DNA of 64,000 nucleotides from Glandiceps talaboti. Its lineage: Eukaryota; Hemichordata; Enteropneusta; Spengelidae. The notes beneath the pieces are model-generated. The model was not told the origin of the DNA. It worked only from the letters and a program-made list of their open reading frames with translations, and did not search any database. The position numbers and the translations under genes were made by a program. Shown piece by piece: positions 38,642 through 58,200 of the stretch; the first letter of the stretch is position 1, and each line of letters opens with the position of its first letter. The stretch is taken from positions 26,926,676 through 26,990,675 of the forward strand of contig NC_135550.1 in the NCBI RefSeq assembly GCF_964340395.1. Reading direction: 5' to 3'.

Positions 38642-46590
<7,949 letters not shown>

Positions 46591-47602: not shown

Positions 47603-50600
47603 CTATCTTGTTCCAACCTACAAGAGATGAGAGAGAAGTGAGAATGTTAGTAGAGGAAACATACACATCAAACTATAACACTATGTGCTGGTTTTCATGA
47701 CCTGACCTTTCACACAAATCCTACATGAAAAGATTACTAGTTAGTAAGTGTCTCCTTAAATAGTAATAGTAATTGATTTGATAGACAGCATCAATTGGAA
47801 ACCTTGGTCTAAATATATTTGTATCATGTACATGTCAAATATTTTACTGGAGCACTCTTCAGCGCCATCTTTGCATAACTATGGCTCTGCCAGACAACTA
47901 ACTGTTCTCCACACCCTAATTATTATCCTAACCTGACATGGGTCTTGAACAACCATCAATTTGACTTCTTCTTAGAACAGCTATGCGCCCCCCTCTTTCA
48001 AGTGATACTAATACTTGCCTAAATATCCAACAAGTTTCAGAGTTAGACAGGCTTGGTATAATTTTACATCGTAACTATGTCAAAATCACTTATAGTAATG
48101 CACAGATTGATACTTACTATATCATCTATCTTCATGATACTTCTAACACATTCTGATGCTAACTCGATGCAACTAGTTGATACCAACAATGGTTGTACAA
48201 CATTCTCATCCAAGATATTGGTGATGCACCCCTGAATTAAAAGTGAAAACAAAATACAATGATTACTTGCAGTCTTCAAACACCAGATTGTAATAAAAAG
48301 TATTGGTATATGCAAGTTGAACTGTAGATCGTCAGAACTTTTAATCAAAACACTTGTTATCCTCATCATCATCAGATGAGGGAAAGGTTTGTGTCATCAT
48401 TTGATACTACAGTAGGCAAACCTGTCAATGGAAAATGATGGCCATCTCCTTTGAATAATTTCATGATAATACCATCTAGTATGTGCTTTTGTTGGAATTT
48501 GTACTATTAGGCATTCCATCCCAGTGTATTACTTTTTTCAACTAAAGGACACATGAATTACATAAACACACTTGTTATCAACATACCTTTCTGACATTGA
48601 TTCCTGCAGACTTTTCTCCTTGTGCATGTCTATTACGTAGTTCAGTTACTACAGATATTGGATTGAGACCAGCATTCTCAGCTAAAGTGTATGGTACCAC
48701 TTCTAATGCCTCTGCAAATGCCCTGAAGCAGTAGCCCTCCATGCCAGTCAGTGATCTAGCAAACTCCATCAGACGAAGTGACATTTCAGTTTCTGGAGCA
48801 CCTCCACCTGCAATCAATGCCCTACAAAGAACAACAGACAGGCTCAAAACTTGTGTCATGTTATGCAGCTTCCAGATAACTTGAAAACTTGTATCAACTT
48901 GCCTTAAAGTTACTCATCTGCCTGTTACATAATCAACATTACTGATGTCTTAGATCTAGTAAATCGAGATGACTATCCAGTATATGTGATTTTCACACAG
49001 CTGTTAGCATGCTAAACACCATGTTGCCTTTACTAGCAATATGTTGATTTTCTTCATTACAGTAAGATAAAGTCATTCATATTGTCCTCAGGTAGGGTTC
49101 AAGGCTGCTTTCCTCAATTGAAATCAGAAGAGGGAGCCCTATTTTCATCACAGGACATTCAGTAAGCAAGCAAGCAAGCAAGACAAGACACAAGTCACAC
49201 CTCGACCAATAACCACTAACAAATGGTACAATGACACTAAATTACACTTACTTCTTTTTAACCAAACATCTGATGACACACAAAGCATCATGTAGGGATC
49301 GGTCAGCCTCTTCAATAACAAGCTTGTTAGAGCCTCTGACTAGAATAGACACAGTCCTTCCTGCATTGGCTGCACCAGTTACCTGTATGATCATAACAAG
49401 AAGAAACAATCATGAATGATTCCAAACACTCATGGATTGGCATTTACACCAATGACATGTTCTGAACATGTTGAATAATGCTGACTTTTTGAGCTGTAGG
49501 TCGTCAGAAACTTTAGTTTGAACACTTTTTATCCTCATCATCATCAGATGAGGGAAAGGTTTGTGTCATCATTTAAAACTACAGCATGAGAATGATTTCA
49601 TATAGACAGTATCATCAGTCATAACACTAAGTACAACGCAACTTTTATGGGAAATTGTTGTCTGTATGTGTATAGGTCTATCCACAATTTGATAGGATTT
49701 TTTCAGTTGGAGATTCTTTCTACAAAGCACTTCTAACCTTCAAATGTTTCCAAGGCAAAAGCAAATTCAATTGGTTTAATATATATATATTGTGTGCATG
49801 TAAAGTGTAGAAAATTGGAGATAATGTAGGAACAACATGATATAGGAAACTGAAAATCAGAAAATGGTCAAATTACCTTTACTATTTTACCAGTTCCAGC
49901 AGATACTTCTTCCACAAGTTCTGCAGTTGCAAGATGCTCTGGTAGAAAATGATCTACACTTGCAATGGGTCTACATCCTAAACTCTGAAGAAAAATAAAA
50001 TAACCTGTACAGTTAACATGAACAAAAAATCATGCCATCTAAAAATCTGAAAACATTTTTGACTCCCTAAAATATCGATCAACCTAAAGATAATAACAAA
50101 AGTTTAATATGGAAACTGATTGTGTCAAGTTCCTTTATTGCTTTGATATGTTGAATTCTATGGGTCGACATCAATGTTTTAACCATTCAGAATGAGCATG
50201 ACATGTTCTCAGGTTGGGTACAATTCTGGTCTCCTCGCCTAGATCAGAAGAGGGAGCACTGTTGTCATCATAGGATTCTGATCAATGAATAAATTTTATT
50301 CTGTGCTGTCGCCACAAAGAATTACCCATATTGGAATAATAGATACATTGCAGCATTGTATTGAAGAGAAAACACAGCAATCTTACCTTACAAATGAATT
50401 CAATATCCTCCCTTTCAACATCTTTCACAACCATGATCTTCATTTTAGCGAGGAAATGAAGTGCTAAATCATTCACAGCATCTCTGTATCAAGATACAAT
50501 CAATGGACATGTATTGTTATGGTTTCACATAGAAATGCTTCATAGGAAATCAATTATTTTGTTCAAACTACTATATCACAATTTTGAAACCACTCAAGAG

Positions 50601-53600
50601 TTGGCTACATGTGAATACTTCTTGTTTTGCATGATGACAAAATAAAATGTTTCCCAAAGATGTGCTCAAAACACTGTAAACTTGTCATCAAAAGTACACG
50701 GAGTCCAATTATTACCTTTGGAAGTAACATGATCCAAAATGAAGGTAACTGCACCCTGTTCATCTTTCTGACAAATTATCAGATATATTACTTATACCAA
50801 CCTCAATATTGATTTTTGGATCAGCAATACATTGCATCCAGCTTTCTTAATTTGCTTGACTAGATTTAAAATATATTGTCTTTCTTCTCGTAAAACTCTA
50901 TCCATTTGTGCATAATCAGAAACTACAACTTGGTTTTCCATCTGCAACAACAACAACAACAAACAACTTTTTTTAGGAAAAGATGCATGACAATCTACAA
51001 ATTCAAAATTCAGAAGGCCCCCCTTCTAAGTTTGATAATGTAAGTAACCTCCAAGTACCCTGAACACAGAGAAAATGAAAACATTGTATGCACTGTCGTA
51101 TTGAATTAATGAGGGCCCTTGTCTTTCCAAGAGTAAAATTTATTGTATCTCCCACTTCTGTAGGTACTTTGTAAGTTCTGCAACCAAAGTACAAGTTTCT
51201 CTTCTCTTGTCTTCAGTTTGGGTTCAAGCTTATATCCTCATCTAAATCAGAAGAGGGAGCTTTGCTGTCATCACAAGACAAGTGGTAAATATATCTGTCA
51301 AAAAGTAACATCAACCAACTTGGAAGGTCAAATTACTGCGTTAACTAACATGTCTTGAAAGAAGAACTTACATCTGTCTTGGGTGGTGACAGGCAAAATT
51401 GTATCAATCCTATTTTTGCTTTCTCAATCTTATGTAAACCAATGCTGGCTAACTTTTGGGTAAAAACTACTCCTTCCACAAGTTCTATGTCTTCCATGGT
51501 ACCTCTGAAATTACAAAAAAAGTGACAGGATTTGCAAGTGCAAAATGCTAAAAATATTGGTAACCTGTGTATATAGAAATTCAACTCTAGACACATACTA
51601 CGATTACGTTTTTAAAAGGATTCATTTTATGTCTACTGCACAGTTATATCTATTGAATATCTTTCTTCACATGTCTTAACTTCCACACTGCAATTAAAAG
51701 TGTTGATAGTGACCAGTTACTAGTGACTAGCCACACTTGTGTGCCAAAACAGTACTGATGATAACATGAAAGAAGCAACACTAGTGAACATCTTACCCTA
51801 GTTTCTGGATGACTTTGATATCTCTAAGGTCTACATTGTCTGCCCTTGCAGGGTCAATAACTTTCAGGACTGCATCCACTGCAATTGGTGCTAGTAGATT
51901 GGAATACTGGGATACAACCTAACAATAATCATGAAAATACAATATACAAAAATTACAAAAACGACAATACAAAGTAACATTCTAAGTTGCAGAAATCTAT
52001 TAAATACTCGACATGAGAGCCAAAATGTTCAACGGCTAGCTTGGTCACCTACTAGTGGTCAGCTGTAACTAGGAAATTTGTCATCTTGATGATGATTGTT
52101 GATCAAGGCAGGTCAAAAGCTTAATTTTAAAAATACTTCAAACGGCTTGTGTATCACATAACATGTGTAAATCATTTTACGTGAGAGATTGTAATATTCC
52201 CACTTCTGGATAACCAACACAATAAGATGACCCTAAATAATCAACTCAAAATTACACAGTGCTTCAGGATTTGTTGTAAGAGCCCATTTCATTCACAGGA
52301 ATTCTTAACATGCCTAGTAAAGTAACAACAGCATTTCAGTTGTTAATTAATATTGTATGCATCAGAGGTTCCTTTGAACTGTGTTTCAGCATCTACCATG
52401 GATAGTAACTTAGCGTTGGATCTTTACATTCATCATGTGCATACATTATTTCTTCATTTTTAACCAGACAAGATGAAGATTTTCAAGATCAGATTTAGAA
52501 CACTTACTTTAGAAGAAAGTGATGTGGTAGCACTCTGGATTAGAGCGTCCCTATTACTCAGATCAACTGGTACAGACATGCTTTCTAAAATTTCAACAGC
52601 TTTACTGGAAGCCTTCTGGAATGATTCAGAAATTGTTGTAGGGTGGATACCTGAAATAAATAAATATACAAATGTTATTATTGTCATGAAAATTATCTTG
52701 GCACGTTTAGAGTCCTATAGTCAACGTACCAAATCTCCATGTTTATGATGTGCATGTTTATGAGCTGGATTGTTTATTACATCTGCACTTCAATCATTCT
52801 TGCATTTACTCTCATTGCAGTAGATCCCTGTATATGTAACATAATCTCACCTTTAGCTAGAAGTTTTGCACTTGCATCTAATAGGCTTCCAGCAATAACA
52901 ACAACAGAAGTTGTACCATCTCCAGCTTCAATATCCTGTGATTTGGATAATTCTACAAACTAAATGGAGAACAAAAATAAAGTGAATTTAGTAAGAAAGA
53001 CCATATTATTCTAAAACAGGAAAGTTTTAACACCTTGCTATATGCTATGTAACCTTCTTAGGGCATTTTTTTAAGTATCCTATGAAAGTTAATACAAGCA
53101 TGACTGTATATTCAAACCAACTGCTGAAACATTTTAATAATTTGGAAGAGCATAGTATCTACCATATATCAGTTTATCAAATCTAAACTATGCAGACCAT
53201 GTGATTATTCTTTGCGCATGTACGTCTGACAAGTAGCAGCAGTATATGGTGGAATTAAACTTGTGATTTAATTACAACAACCAAGTTTTACATTTGTGGA
53301 GAAGTCACCAGTATTTCTCTAAAAGCAATACTGGTTCCCAGATAAGTATATTTACTATTGGATATCATGTACATTTTGATTTTATTTCAGCTTTCTGTGA
53401 CAGACCTGAAACTACTGTATGTTCAATTTCATGAAGTGCATCAGAGGTTCCTTTGAATATTCTCTCCACAGAAATCTCAGAGTTGGATTGTTTATTACAT
53501 CATCTGCACTTCTATTATTTTTACATTTTACACTTCACAACATTGTGAAGTCCTTTTTGTAGTTTGTAGACACCATTGCATAATGCAGATATTTCATCAA

Positions 53601-54855
53601 AAGAATAATTTAGCCATTCTCCTCTATGACAGAATATTGACACATGTTCAGGTTACAGTTACTACTGCATGAAAATATGTCCAATCACACACTTGATGAC
53701 TTTCCAAGACAGAATTGCTTGTTTATCTTACCATTTTTGCTGCTGGATGCAACACCTGCATCTGTTTCAAAATAGTTGCACCATCATTTGTTATTGTCAC
53801 ATCACCATTGGGGCTTTGGATCTATAAAATCAAATGTATACATTTCAAATAAACAAACATACTTCACAATTTATGCTTTATCTTAATTCTACTCACAAAT
53901 GCAATTTGTCAAAGATGACCAATGTGTTCAATTCTTTGTATCAAATCAATTCATACATGTAACTTACCATCTTATCCATGCCCTTTGGTCCGAGACTTGT
54001 GCGGATTGCATCTGCAACAGCTGGAATTAATGAAATGGATCAATGTGGAGCTTCTTAGTTTATAATCAAAATATGTATAGAGAACTAGGATACAGCAATG
54101 TTCAATACATTCACACTTCATACTGAAACACACTCATTGTTGATTACAAGGTAATACCCCACCCCCATGTTACCCTGCCAGCATTCTGACATGCATGCTG
54201 TAAATAACAGGTTCATTTTTAGGTTTCGTTGGTCCTGCTTGCAGATGTAGTAAGTCGAGAACTCTCCTTTTTCTTTTTTTTAGTTTAGGAACATTGTCAG
54301 CATCTAGTCTTGTCCTCAGTGTGCAAGCGCTAGCAGGACTAAAGTTTCAAACTTTCACTAAATAAATGCCAGTCATCCTACAGGCTACAACACGTACATC
54401 ACTAGTAATAATGTTAAATCACAAGTCTGTCACCTCTTAACTTAATTCCCCTATTGCTCGCGCTCGCCTAGTAATCAATGAATCGTTCCATGCATTAACA
54501 TAAACAATGACGTTCACACCATTACCTGAAAGTGAATTAGTGAACATCTTTCCTTCTAGAATATGATAATCTGACATTATAAGGCTTCTTAATACGATAC
54601 TCCACATGCCATGCTGTCAGAATATCGCAGTGTCGAGAAAACACATTACGCATTGGCCACTTCTTAGCCATAATATTGTAATGTTATTTTTTTTTAAAGA
54701 AGAGGTTGAGATTTCGACAAATTTTACCACCATTAGAGACTAGTCGGGTCTCAATAATTAATAGCCCAAATACCTTTCGCTGCGACGATGTTGCTCTCAC
54801 GAATTTGAGTTGGTTTTTCTTTATCCTTGTATTGACGTCCTCCATATTCCGGCAT
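47603..54855 (-). CDS. CCT4: T-complex protein 1 subunit delta (14 coding exons)
   Basis: Delta subunit of the cytosolic TRiC/CCT chaperonin, which folds actin, tubulin and other proteins. Minus-strand exons: 54774-54855, 53968-54020, 53732-53821, 52851-52959, 52508-52650, 51797-51918, 51372-51504, 50802-50941, 50387-50483, 49877-49984, 49252-49382, 48587-48821, 48118-48231 and 47603-47617. All junctions are GT-AG and in frame, giving 523 aa against 539 in human. Group II chaperonin motifs are intact: [28 protein letters not shown] (ATPase), LIAGGGAPE and the C-terminal [18 protein letters not shown]. The last exon codes only four residues (VGTR), as in the human ending VNTR. It is divergent from FAM161A. 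At least seven introns or intron parts carry C/D snoRNA-like sequences, making CCT4 a snoRNA host gene. Confidence 0.97.
48322..48412 (-). ncRNA. C/D-box snoRNA-like, family A copy 1 (CCT4 intron 12)
   Basis: In sense with CCT4. The terminal stem is CTGTAG (5') with CTACAG (3'). Box C is ATGATGA, followed by D' CTGA, then C' TGATGAG three bases later, and box D CTGA. The guide before D' is AACCTTTCCCTCAT and is identical in copy 2. The sequence before box D differs between copies. The target is not identified. Confidence 0.75.
49084..49156 (-). ncRNA. C/D-box snoRNA-like, family B copy 1 (CCT4 intron 11)
   Basis: Terminal stem GTCC/GGAC, box C GTGATGA, D' CTGA, C'-like TTGAGGA and box D CTGA. 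The D' guide GGGCTCCCTCTT could pair with the conserved 18S rRNA stretch GAGAGGGAGCC. The layout matches family A (CAAA..TCCCTC.TCTGAT..GATGAGGATA), so A and B are probably one lineage. Confidence 0.7.
49493..49585 (-). ncRNA. C/D-box snoRNA-like, family A copy 2 (CCT4 intron 10)
   Basis: Terminal stem GCTGTAG/CTACAGC (7 bp), box C ATGATGA, D' CTGA, C' TGATGAG and box D CTGA. The D' half is the same as in copy 1 (48322-48412), while the D guide has changed. Confidence 0.78.
50205..50278 (-). ncRNA. C/D-box snoRNA-like, family B copy 2 (CCT4 intron 9)
   Basis: Box C ATGATGA, D' CTGA after GTGCTCCCTCTT, C'-like GCGAGGA and box D CTGA. The terminal stem is weak here, so this copy may be decaying. 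Confidence 0.6.
51206..51282 (-). ncRNA. C/D-box snoRNA-like, family B copy 3 (CCT4 intron 7)
   Basis: Terminal stem CTTGTCT/AGACAAG (7 bp), box C GTGATGA, D' CTGA after AAGCTCCCTCTT, C' GATGAGGA and box D CTGA. This is the best-formed member of family B. Confidence 0.78.
52354..52445 (-). ncRNA. SNORD42: SNORD42 (U42)-like C/D snoRNA, copy 1 (CCT4 intron 5)
   Basis: Terminal stem TGTATGCA/TGCATACA (8 bp), box C ATGATGA, box D CTGA, and an internal CTGA usable as D'. The guide before box D is TTCAAAGGAACCT, complementary to 18S rRNA GGUUCCUUUG near its 5' end. The base pairing with the fifth nucleotide before box D is the second U of GGUU, which by my count is human U116. That is the known SNORD42 methylation site. 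In human, SNORD42 sits in RPL23A introns. Confidence 0.8.
52763..52802 (-). ncRNA. Decayed SNORD42-like 5' half (CCT4 intron 4)
   Basis: The minus strand reads GAAGTGCAGATGTAATAAAC then AATCCA, matching the 5' stem and box C region of the copy at 53433-53512. Box C is damaged, and the rRNA guide and box D are missing. This is a fossil copy. Confidence 0.5.
53433..53512 (-). ncRNA. SNORD42: SNORD42 (U42)-like C/D snoRNA, copy 2 (CCT4 intron 3)
   Basis: Terminal stem GAAGTGCA/TGCACTTC (8 bp), box C ATGATGT, D' CTGA, box D CTGA. The guide before box D is TTCAAAGGAACCT, identical to copy 1. The two stems differ from each other but each is self-complementary, which is covariation that supports a real RNA. 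Confidence 0.8.
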
Positions 54856-55298
54856 ATTTGTAGATATATGTATCAACCTACTCGGGAAACCAAAAGAAAT
54901 GCACTGCCTTACTGGAAAAGTAAGGATGAATGTGGATTTTCAGACCTTTCTACTGAAGAATCACGTTTTCGCCTGTCATGCAAGATCCTGGGAATGCAAT
55001 ATGGCCGCTCTTAAAGTAACGCGAGATACGTGACCAGTACTTCTCGCGAGACATTTTTGTCCTCGCTCAATCTTGCACGAACTTGCTGTGCAAGTTATGA
55101 CAACATCCTACGTATCCAGGCGTTATAGATATATATGTCATGCTCGCGTATATTTGGTAGACAATTTTTCGAGGTAGGGCTGACTTTTTGAAATTGTATT
55201 TCAATCGTTTTGTGCATACAAACCTTGACTAACCTGTATTCGTTAGTCAGTGCCCGAGATCGAGACTAAGTGTTGTAGTTGTTTGAAAGCAATCAAAC
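54856..55298. promoter_or_regulatory. CCT4-FAM161A divergent promoter with TCTCGCGAGA
   Basis: 443 bp separate the start codons. TCTCGCGAGA lies at 55042-55051, with CGCGAGA again near 55021. This palindrome is a strong activating element of CpG-rich housekeeping and bidirectional promoters in vertebrates, bound by BANP. The segment is clearly richer in CpG than the introns. No TATA box is seen. A 102-codon plus-strand frame over CCT4 exon 1 (54706-55014) is antisense shadow. Confidence 0.6.
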
Positions 55299-58200
55299 AT
55301 GGCAACCGGTCATGGCTTGTCCGTTATCACAAATTCATGTGTGAGAAATCCCGTAAATCCAAGAAGTAGACTTGCCGCCACCCTTGACGAGAGAGGGGGA
55401 ACACTAAGGTCTTCATGGAAAGGGGAACTTGGGATAAATGGTGAATATCACCTGGACAACACAAGTCGGGAAGAGGAGGTGGATATCGTACTCGCTGAAC
55501 CCCCAGGTCAAATATCGCCGCGGACTCTCAATTTGAATTCGACCGACCAGATGATAGAGACTCTAACCGATGAAGTAGGTAATCTTACTGATGAAGAATT
55601 TTATCGAAGATTGCAACAATTAAAACATGAACATAAAAAGACGCTCAAAATGGTTGAAAAACTGTATAGTGAAAAGGTAACAACAGAGTCTTATCCGGGT
55701 GAGAGCATTCACCTTGCAGATCACCACAAAACAAGACATATTGATGAACAGATCGAAGACGTAAACAGGGATCTGGGAGAGTTGCAAAAGAGCTATAGGT
55801 TAGGATCTCATTTAAAAGACAATGTACGAGACATGTCGGCCAAACCACCACTCCCACGAAGCTCGGGTGCACCTCACTCCCACTCAGCAAAGAAGGCTTG
55901 GTCATCCCCAGCTCGCAGATCTAGCCCAGGTAAACTTCGTCGTAGTGGTAGCTATTCTGGTGAAGACTGGAGTGACATTACCTGGAATTCCAGTAGTTTA
56001 GATGCCAGTGCCAGACAAGATGATGATGCAGCAAGCATATCGTCAGCCCCTGCCCAGGAACGACCATCATCAGCTCAGGCACGCATTGATGACATGTGGG
56101 AAGGATTCTCAGTGGATGACTATGCTCCACGTTCTCGCACTCGTGTTCGGCGACATAGCACCAGCTCCAGGGCATCGTCAGTCTCAAGTTCAAAGAAGGA
56201 ATGGTCACCAAAGATAACAATTCCAAAACCATTCAAAATGACTCTCAGAGACTCTTGTAAAGTGAAGAAAAAGACCAGGGCAGCAGAAGAACTAGAAAGA
56301 CAGCTTCTAGAAAAGGAGAAAGCAGAAGAGGCAGAATGCCAAAAGAAGTTCAAAGCAAGTCCAGCACCTGGTCACACATTTGTCCCCCTGTATGATGAAA
56401 TCATTGAACAACAGGAACATAGAAGACGACAAAACAGAGAGTTTAGTAAAGAAATGGTGAAGTCTGTTCAAAAACCATTCAAGTTCTTAGAACGAGATGA
56501 AGAAAAGAAAAAGCATCGCCGAGCCATGTCACTCCCACTAACTGAAAATAAAACCAAACCCAAGCAGTTCAGAGCAAAACCAGTACCACAACATATGTAC
56601 AACACCTCAATGTCTGACAAAATAGAGGAAGAGGAGGAATACAGGAGGATCAGGATTAAAATGAGGGCTGAGGAAATGCTAAGACAATCACAGTTACCCC
56701 AAAATATGCAGATCAGGGGAAGAGAATATACTGATGGCAGATCAAGACACAGAATGTTACAAGACCGTGAAAACAGGGCATTCATTACGAGGGAACACAA
56801 ATTCAAACCAAAAGTCAATCATGAGGTTCCAGATTATGACCTACTCTATCGGAAATTCCAAAAGAAAGCATCAAAGAAAAAATATGAGAAAGAAGCAACA
56901 GCTGTCCAACCATTCAATCTTCGCACTGAAAGGATGAGATCAAGCAAGGAAAAAATTTTGAAAGAAATGGAAGAAGATGAAATGAGATTAAAGGAGCAGC
57001 GTTGGCCATATAGAAGTGTACGATCCATGTCACCAACACCAAGAGGGAGCATCAACATACCAAGTGACTCGATCCCAGCAAAGATGACACAGTCAGCACA
57101 ATTGAGAGAGAGTTCAGTCAGAAAGAGCATTGAAGAAAGAGTGGAAAAACAGAAAGGAGATTTGGAGAAAGAAAGAATGAAAAGGTTGAAAGAGAGAAAG
57201 TTAAGAAAATCTATTTCAGAGAAAGCTGTGGCCAATGATCAGTCAGAAACAATGAGGTCTTCCCAGAAGGATAAAGTGAAGAAGTTCAAGTAAGTTATTA
57301 TCATTGTTTGTGTCAACAAAAATCATTGTTGTTTATGCTAGACTACATTAGTGCAAACACATTTAATGACAATAAAATGTGATAAAGTCTCATCAAGAAA
57401 TTTCCACCTTCAATTCTTTATAGTTATTTTTTGGATACATACAGAAAAAAGTGAACAGTGGAGTTAATATCATGGTATTGCTTTATCGTGTTACTTTGTT
57501 TTGTCATGATACACTGACAGTGTTCAATATCATCATGACATTCTATATGTCATGTAGTACTACTATACCTTATTTTATTTCAACAGAGCAACATATACAA
57601 CTGGCAAGTGAAACTATTTTCCAACTAAGAATGACATACCCCATTGTTCTATTGACTGTTGAAAGTAATGGCCACCTCCTGAGATTTTCGTGAAATGGTT
57701 CACGTCATGTAAATGGACAGTGAACACAATCAACAGCTGCATTTTGTCAATAGAATACATGTACATGTACTTTCACAATCATTAATTTCGTTGTTAAACT
57801 AAGTTAAGAATTGGACACTTCTTTCAGGCAATCTGAACGGTCAAGACAGGAAGAATATGAAAGAGAATTACAAGAAATGATGACAAGAATTGAAAGCAGA
57901 CCTCTGCTGTTTGAGAGAGAATCACAGGTAAGTTGTTTGATAGACTCATCTGTTTGTGCCTAGTGTTGCTCACCCAAATATTTCCATACTGTTATAGCAT
58001 GTAGACAGACTAACTAAAAGATTAGAATGATGTGAAGGGAGAGGGGTTCAAAATGACTTTAGATGTTAAATGTTCGTTCATTCGTATATCAGTCAGTCAG
58101 TGTTATTATATGGTCTATTTACAATAATGTTGGAGTAAAATGTAATATAATGTGCCTATTATTAACTTTAAATTTCCAGACAAATGCCAAGCGAGAGGCA

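Follow-up and report, generated by a model that had tools for sequence, protein, structure and literature searches.

C/D snoRNA-like segments in the CCT4 introns

The stretch analysed here (the window; 64,000 nucleotides (nt) of Glandiceps talaboti contig NC_135550.1, positions 26,926,676 to 26,990,675) carries the chaperonin gene CCT4 on its minus strand. All 13 CCT4 introns start with GT and end with AG, and the 14 joined exons give an open frame of 523 amino acids whose best matches in PDB are TCP-1 subunit delta (residues 5-523, expectation value (E) 6e-254). Introns 3, 5, 7, 9, 10, 11 and 12 each hold one segment resembling a gene for a box C/D small nucleolar RNA (snoRNA). As the earlier note on this DNA had claimed, these seven segments all lie within CCT4 introns and on the sense strand, between 48321 and 53512. 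The features are the following (18S and 28S refer to ribosomal RNA, rRNA; D′ and box D guides are the stretches upstream of these boxes):

47606..54855, minus strand: CCT4 host gene, coding exons 1-14 and introns 1-13 (joined frame and TCP-1 delta matches)
53433..53512, minus strand: SNORD42-like C/D snoRNA, intron 3; RF00150 match; 8-bp stem GAAGTGCA/TGCACTTC; predicted box D guide for 18S U116 and D′ guide for 28S GUUGGAUUGUU
52762..52798, minus strand: decayed relic, intron 4, like the 5′ half of the intron 3 copy, with a damaged box C and no 3′ half (alignment)
52354..52445, minus strand: SNORD42-like C/D snoRNA, intron 5; 8-bp stem; predicted box D guide for 18S U116; poor D′ (CTAA), the preceding guide fitting 18S G683
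51206..51282, minus strand: SNORD100-like C/D snoRNA, intron 7; RF00609 match; predicted D′ guide for 18S G436
50187..50281, minus strand: SNORD100-like C/D snoRNA, intron 9, outer stem included; Rfam match at 50206-50276; G436 is the second-best D′ site
49493..49585, minus strand: C/D snoRNA of the 28S-guide pair, intron 10; stem GCTGTAG/CTACAGC; likeness to intron 12; predicted D′ guide for 28S GUGAGGGAAAG
49081..49159, minus strand: SNORD100-like C/D snoRNA, intron 11; RF00609 match; predicted D′ guide for 18S G436
48321..48413, minus strand: C/D snoRNA of the 28S-guide pair, intron 12; stem ACTGTAG/CTACAGT; likeness to intron 10 and the same D′ guide

The introns were scanned with a strict rule demanding box C (RTGATGA, at most one mismatch), a CTGA box D, an inner CTGA and at least five Watson-Crick stem pairs adjoining the boxes. 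Four sense matches (introns 3, 5, 7 and 11) and no antisense match were obtained in the 13 introns; 200 dinucleotide shuffles of the same introns gave a mean of 0.015 and a maximum of 1. The remaining window contained a single match, at 42696 on the minus strand, where the window search listed no Rfam match. Under a relaxed rule, in which the stem was permitted anywhere up to 12 nt from the boxes, six of the seven copies were recovered (introns 3, 5, 7, 10, 11 and 12), with no match antisense or in the other seven introns; this rule thus revealed no further copy in introns 1, 2, 6, 8 or 13, and no intact one in intron 4. The intron 9 segment is counted as a copy because of its likeness to those of intron 11 (78% over 73 nt) and intron 7 (76% over 72 nt). 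A chance origin of the array was rejected on the shuffles together with the empty antisense strand.

The full C/D plan had been ascribed to every copy. This holds for boxes and stems overall, and the copies of introns 3, 5, 9, 10 and 12 each deviate from it in part. All seven copies have a box C towards the 5′ end and a CTGA box D towards the 3′ end, the intron 3 box C carrying one mismatch (ATGATGT). In the intron 5 copy the first expected D′ position reads CTAA, and the CTGA that satisfied the strict rule sits elsewhere. The terminal stem adjoins the boxes in 4/7 copies and is set off from them in two, by about 6 nt (intron 10) and about 4 nt (intron 12). The intron 9 copy has boxes and guide without an inner stem, its only stem being an outer one of 7 bp (TCAGAAT/ATTCTGA) that extends past box D.

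Two further statements of the earlier note were borne out. Stems were said to vary between copies while remaining self-complementary: in three within-group comparisons (intron 3 with 5, 7 with 11 and 10 with 12; intron 9, having no inner stem, was omitted), Watson-Crick pairing holds in both copies at 22 of 23 stem pairs, seven of these having changed on both sides, and is broken at one. A decayed eighth copy was also said to be present, and it lies in intron 4 (85% identity over 40 nt to the intron 3 copy, E 5.5e-5 against the window). This remnant shows that copies decay; others, that of intron 9 being the likeliest, might be unexpressed or failing relics, so that the working array would number fewer than seven. 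The absent inner stem of intron 9 and the want of a proper D′ in intron 5 would agree with this. We nevertheless consider it unlikely, as the intron 9 copy retains box C, D′, box D, the guide GCTCCCTCT and its 7-bp outer stem.

Groups, family matches and predicted rRNA targets

The copies had been divided into two families, five sharing a TCCCTC-containing core and two resembling SNORD42; we find three groups instead, formed by introns 7/9/11, introns 3/5 and introns 10/12. In every group the likeness between members was matched by none of 500 box-keeping shuffles. Introns 10 and 12 carry copies with 88.5% identity over 96 nt, and those of introns 3 and 5 have 21 identical nt in common, spanning the box D guide. 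Of the proposed five-copy family, introns 7, 9 and 11 stand together as SNORD100-like; introns 10 and 12 resemble them in the 5′ half only and have a different D′ guide and predicted target.

The SNORD100 identity, absent from the earlier note, was found through RF00609. In a search of 13 kb this model scored 53.8 bits on intron 11 (E 1.3e-9), 45.9 on intron 7 (E 2.1e-7) and 27.2 on intron 9 (E 0.038). RF00150 (SNORD42) gave a weak match to intron 3 (32.8 bits, E 0.05) in the same search, and none to the intron 5 copy at E up to 10. When the whole window was searched, E rose to 0.19 for SNORD100 in intron 9 and 0.24 for SNORD42 in intron 3. The Rfam check proposed for these introns gives, by E-value, prominent SNORD100 matches (introns 11, 7 and 9) and a weak SNORD42 one (intron 3), none of them at the gathering score.

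To predict targets, 14 guides, two per copy, were compared with human 18S rRNA (1869 nt) and core pieces of 28S rRNA, both entered by hand rather than taken from sequence records; because the 5′ end of this 28S is incomplete, 28S sites are given without position numbers. All seven copies have at least one rRNA-complementary guide upstream of D or D′, a result that is weak by pairing score alone. Since shuffled guides reach the observed scores in 2-156 of 200 trials, the case for targets leans on agreement with published sites rather than on pairing scores.

Such agreement is found in two groups. Introns 7, 9 and 11 align with SNORD100 (HBII-429) over the whole model and share the D′ guide GCTCCCTCT. 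In introns 7 and 11 the best site of this guide places N+5 on 18S G436, the site of SNORD100 according to PMC3412847. In introns 3 and 5 the box D guide CAAAGGAACC places N+5 on 18S U116, in both cases with 10 Watson-Crick pairs and one G-U. This is the site of U42 in PMC2653536; as far as the box D guide goes, the link to SNORD42 drawn previously is correct. The D′ side of this group is less uniform: the intron 3 guide fits 28S GUUGGAUUGUU with 11 Watson-Crick pairs, and the guide before the poor CTAA box of intron 5 fits 18S G683. G683 would be the nucleotide numbered G644 in chicken and assigned there to HBII-108; an offset of 39 also separates G436 from G397.

Introns 10 and 12 share one D′ guide of 18 letters. 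It pairs best with 28S GUGAGGGAAAG, through 10 Watson-Crick pairs plus one G-U, and the nucleotide it is predicted to mark is the G that opens GGG in UGAGGGAAAG; 18S G436 is absent from the three best sites listed for either copy. The pair is not classed as SNORD100 because its best D′ site is this 28S stretch and not G436. We take SNORD26 and SNORD81 to act on the same 28S stretch, GGGAAAG, the predicted G presumably lying a few nt upstream of their sites; we do not know of this G as a methylation site. No SNORD26 or SNORD81 match to the pair was listed by Rfam at E up to 10. Chicken U81 is assigned to 28S A413 in PMC2653536.

Several rRNA words were also looked up in sequence records. GAGAGGGAGCC is present in 6/6 eukaryotic 18S loci, which had been fetched with a longer word containing it. 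The 28S word TGAGGGAAAGTTG lies within a primer known from the literature, and a 28S-like fragment of the G. talaboti genome contains it as ATGAGGGAAAGTTG. Its 28S fragments also contain TGAGGGAAAG, and a 28S stretch contains GTTGGATTGTT, which is relevant to the D′ guide of intron 3.

Two box D guides were tried and rejected. That of intron 12 fits 28S UUUAAUUAAAACA with a score reached by 3/200 shuffles, and was discounted because its pairing begins only at N+5, running solely outward from there. That of intron 10 matched Rfam snR78 at 25.7 bits (E 2.3) and has no good target, 156/200 shuffles reaching its score.

Judged from its sequence, the array is a well-formed intronic C/D snoRNA array of known type. 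Very probably, seven of the 13 CCT4 introns each hold one box C/D snoRNA gene whose product is released from the spliced intron and guides 2′-O-methylation of rRNA, the copies having arisen by intragenic duplication. Each snoRNA, if expressed, would be freed from the spliced CCT4 intron, trimmed to its terminal stem and assembled with the C/D proteins. The assembled RNA would then guide methylation by fibrillarin, at 18S G436 for introns 7, 9 and 11, at 18S U116 for introns 3 and 5, and at the 28S G described above for introns 10 and 12. The copies would have been made by duplication within CCT4, one of them having decayed in intron 4.

A number of observations weigh against this interpretation. 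In the window search no match to any Rfam family, and hence no copy, reaches its gathering score (58 for SNORD100, 39 for SNORD42); this score is a curated cut-off and not a biological trait, and it is the reason for the labels 'SNORD100-like' and 'SNORD42-like'. The 18S and most of the 28S reference sequences were entered by hand rather than taken from sequence records, this 18S being the only basis for the placement on U116. Over the 14 guides, shuffling equals the best observed score as often as stated above, including 32/200 trials for the D′ guide of intron 7. Introns 7, 9, 10 and 11 have unconvincing box D guides (scores reached by 41, 98, 156 and 74 of 200 shuffles, respectively), and the D′ guide of intron 9 prefers a longer, mismatched pairing at 18S 1167, with G436 second best. 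Finally, intronic C/D snoRNAs of vertebrates typically lie 70-80 nt from the 3′ splice site, and the distances measured here, 89-473 nt, are mostly above this figure.

Genomic placement and host genes

Several similar copies within one gene could also be produced by a mobile repeat or reflect chance likeness, in which case they would not be guides at all. In DNA searches of the genome assembly (590 Mb, 47 contigs), the intron 11 copy matched three places, that of intron 10 two and that of intron 3 one, all in CCT4. For these three copies a mobile repeat was rejected on the genome counts. The shuffle controls of the C/D rule and the compensated stem changes speak against this explanation too, and we hold it to be very improbable. 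The whole-genome DNA queries covered these three copies alone; since the one from intron 3 failed to reach its relative in intron 5, such a search can overlook diverged copies.

A genome search with the SNORD100 family model gave two places, both in CCT4 (intron 11, E 1.3e-8; intron 7, E 2.2e-6). In this search 61 of 28684 first candidates were scored and a signal was obtained in 0/14 control genomes, so that a diverged copy elsewhere is possible. The corresponding SNORD42 search yielded nothing, missing even the CCT4 copy, and with no signal in any of the 14 control genomes it is uninformative.

The genes that house these two families in vertebrates were also inspected. In the 9.2 kb around RPS12 there was no Rfam SNORD100 and no GCTCCCTCT, and matches of a sequence-only model built from the three SNORD100-like copies had E 0.58 or worse. 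In the 5 kb around RPL23A neither Rfam SNORD42 at E up to 5 nor AAAGGAACC was found. RPS12 of this genome is interrupted by two or more introns of about 2 kb. According to PMC3412847, SNORD100 resides in RPS12 from sponges to vertebrates and tends to do so in animals that retain the RPS12 introns; with introns kept and no SNORD100 found in the stretch read, this animal departs from the reported tendency. RPS12 is also the host in chicken, and RPL23A that of U42, in PMC2653536. Two guides housed in chicken ribosomal-protein genes thus appear, on sequence grounds, in CCT4 here.

The array differs from the known families in other respects as well. SNORD100 is represented by three copies, all under the gathering score. 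Of the SNORD42-like copies, that of intron 3 is under the gathering score and that of intron 5 is without an RF00150 match; their D′ guides fit 28S GUUGGAUUGUU or 18S G683, unlike the D′ guide of chicken U42, assigned to U4 C8 (PMC2653536). Paralogues in successive introns, arisen by intragenic duplication, are also found in gas5-like hosts; here the host is instead a protein-coding chaperonin gene. The same source describes intragenic duplication as the main route of snoRNA expansion in chicken, names gas5-like hosts as a hotspot and places H/ACA RNAs in the CCT relatives TCP1 and CCT6A. In our analysis H/ACA RNAs were looked for through Rfam alone. Mobility of snoRNAs among broadly expressed hosts is described in PMC3511168.

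Literature searches on CCT4 and snoRNAs found, by title or opening of the abstract, no report of CCT4 as a C/D host, and among the best-ranked matches on hemichordate and deuterostome snoRNAs no title reported this array; subscription papers were mostly outside the search. The type of RNA is ordinary, and our understanding of snoRNA function is unchanged. What is unusual is that CCT4 is the host, that the copies are so many and that one target seems to have changed. The array is invisible to Rfam gathering cut-offs; it would give a new host to two guides that are widely conserved, as a counter-example to the RPS12 residence of SNORD100 described in PMC3412847.

Origin of the intron 10/12 pair and neighbouring features

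Apart from its own three copies, the model introduced above matched, up to E 10, only introns 12 (E 1.8e-4) and 10 (E 7.3e-4) in the window; both values are rough, and the matches cover the 5′ half alone. The pair may thus descend from SNORD100 as a duplicate retargeted from 18S to 28S, a proposition on which we are about evenly divided. In a fuller version, offered tentatively, a duplicated SNORD100 kept its 5′ frame, exchanged its 18S D′ guide for a 28S one and then duplicated again within CCT4.

The pair could equally be independent of SNORD100, sharing with it only boxes and a guide that needs TCCCTC, the 28S guide having entered CCT4 separately; we give this an even chance. TCCCTC is demanded by both the 18S and the 28S target, so that part of the likeness may be convergent, and the likeness ends after the C′ region. 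Comparison with intron 11 agrees with an independent origin, 47 (intron 10) and 21 (intron 12) of 500 box-kept shuffles reaching the observed score. Comparison with the other two members of the group does not: the score was reached by 0 and 0 of 500 shuffles against intron 7, and by 4 and 1 against intron 9. That the model matched nothing in the window besides introns 10 and 12 likewise argues for descent from SNORD100. If that descent holds, the pair would be a compact and testable example of a duplicated snoRNA that apparently acquired a new rRNA target. With SNORD100 and SNORD42 both housed in CCT4 and neither found near its vertebrate ribosomal-protein host, CCT4 would then be a workshop for new guides in this lineage, as gas5-like genes reportedly are in vertebrates.

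Most window matches of the intron 10 and 12 queries come from a TGATGA microsatellite at 39146-39239, which resembles box C/C′ words. Close to it, at 38939-39127, lies a long near-perfect foldback with arms of about 70-90 nt that looks like a short inverted-repeat element. Its scores against plant and animal microRNA families, on both strands, are under their cut-offs and probably stem merely from the hairpin shape.

Fragments resembling 18S and 28S rRNA are scattered in the assembly (at least 30 with an 18S query, 71-91% identity). The exact conserved 18S word is absent from the assembly, and the main ribosomal DNA array therefore seems to be unassembled. The rRNA words were not found in viral contigs. 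Six records titled as bacterial genomes or metagenome-assembled genomes contain eukaryotic 18S rRNA, probably through contamination or mis-binning.

To the left of CCT4, CTGCCCTCTAGTGGTG (45610-45626) and CCGCCCTCTAGTGGTG (45773-45789) are separated by about 160 bases and seem to belong to an exon and the following intron of the neighbouring gene. On the other side is a FAM161-like open frame (55299-57290, plus strand), whose best matches among the 120 listed of 380 are from Ptychodera flava (73% identity) and Saccoglossus kowalevskii (69%), which marks the window as DNA of an acorn worm (enteropneust hemichordate). CCT4 and this gene stand head to head (54855-55299), about 0.44 kb separating their start codons; in human, too, FAM161A adjoins CCT4.

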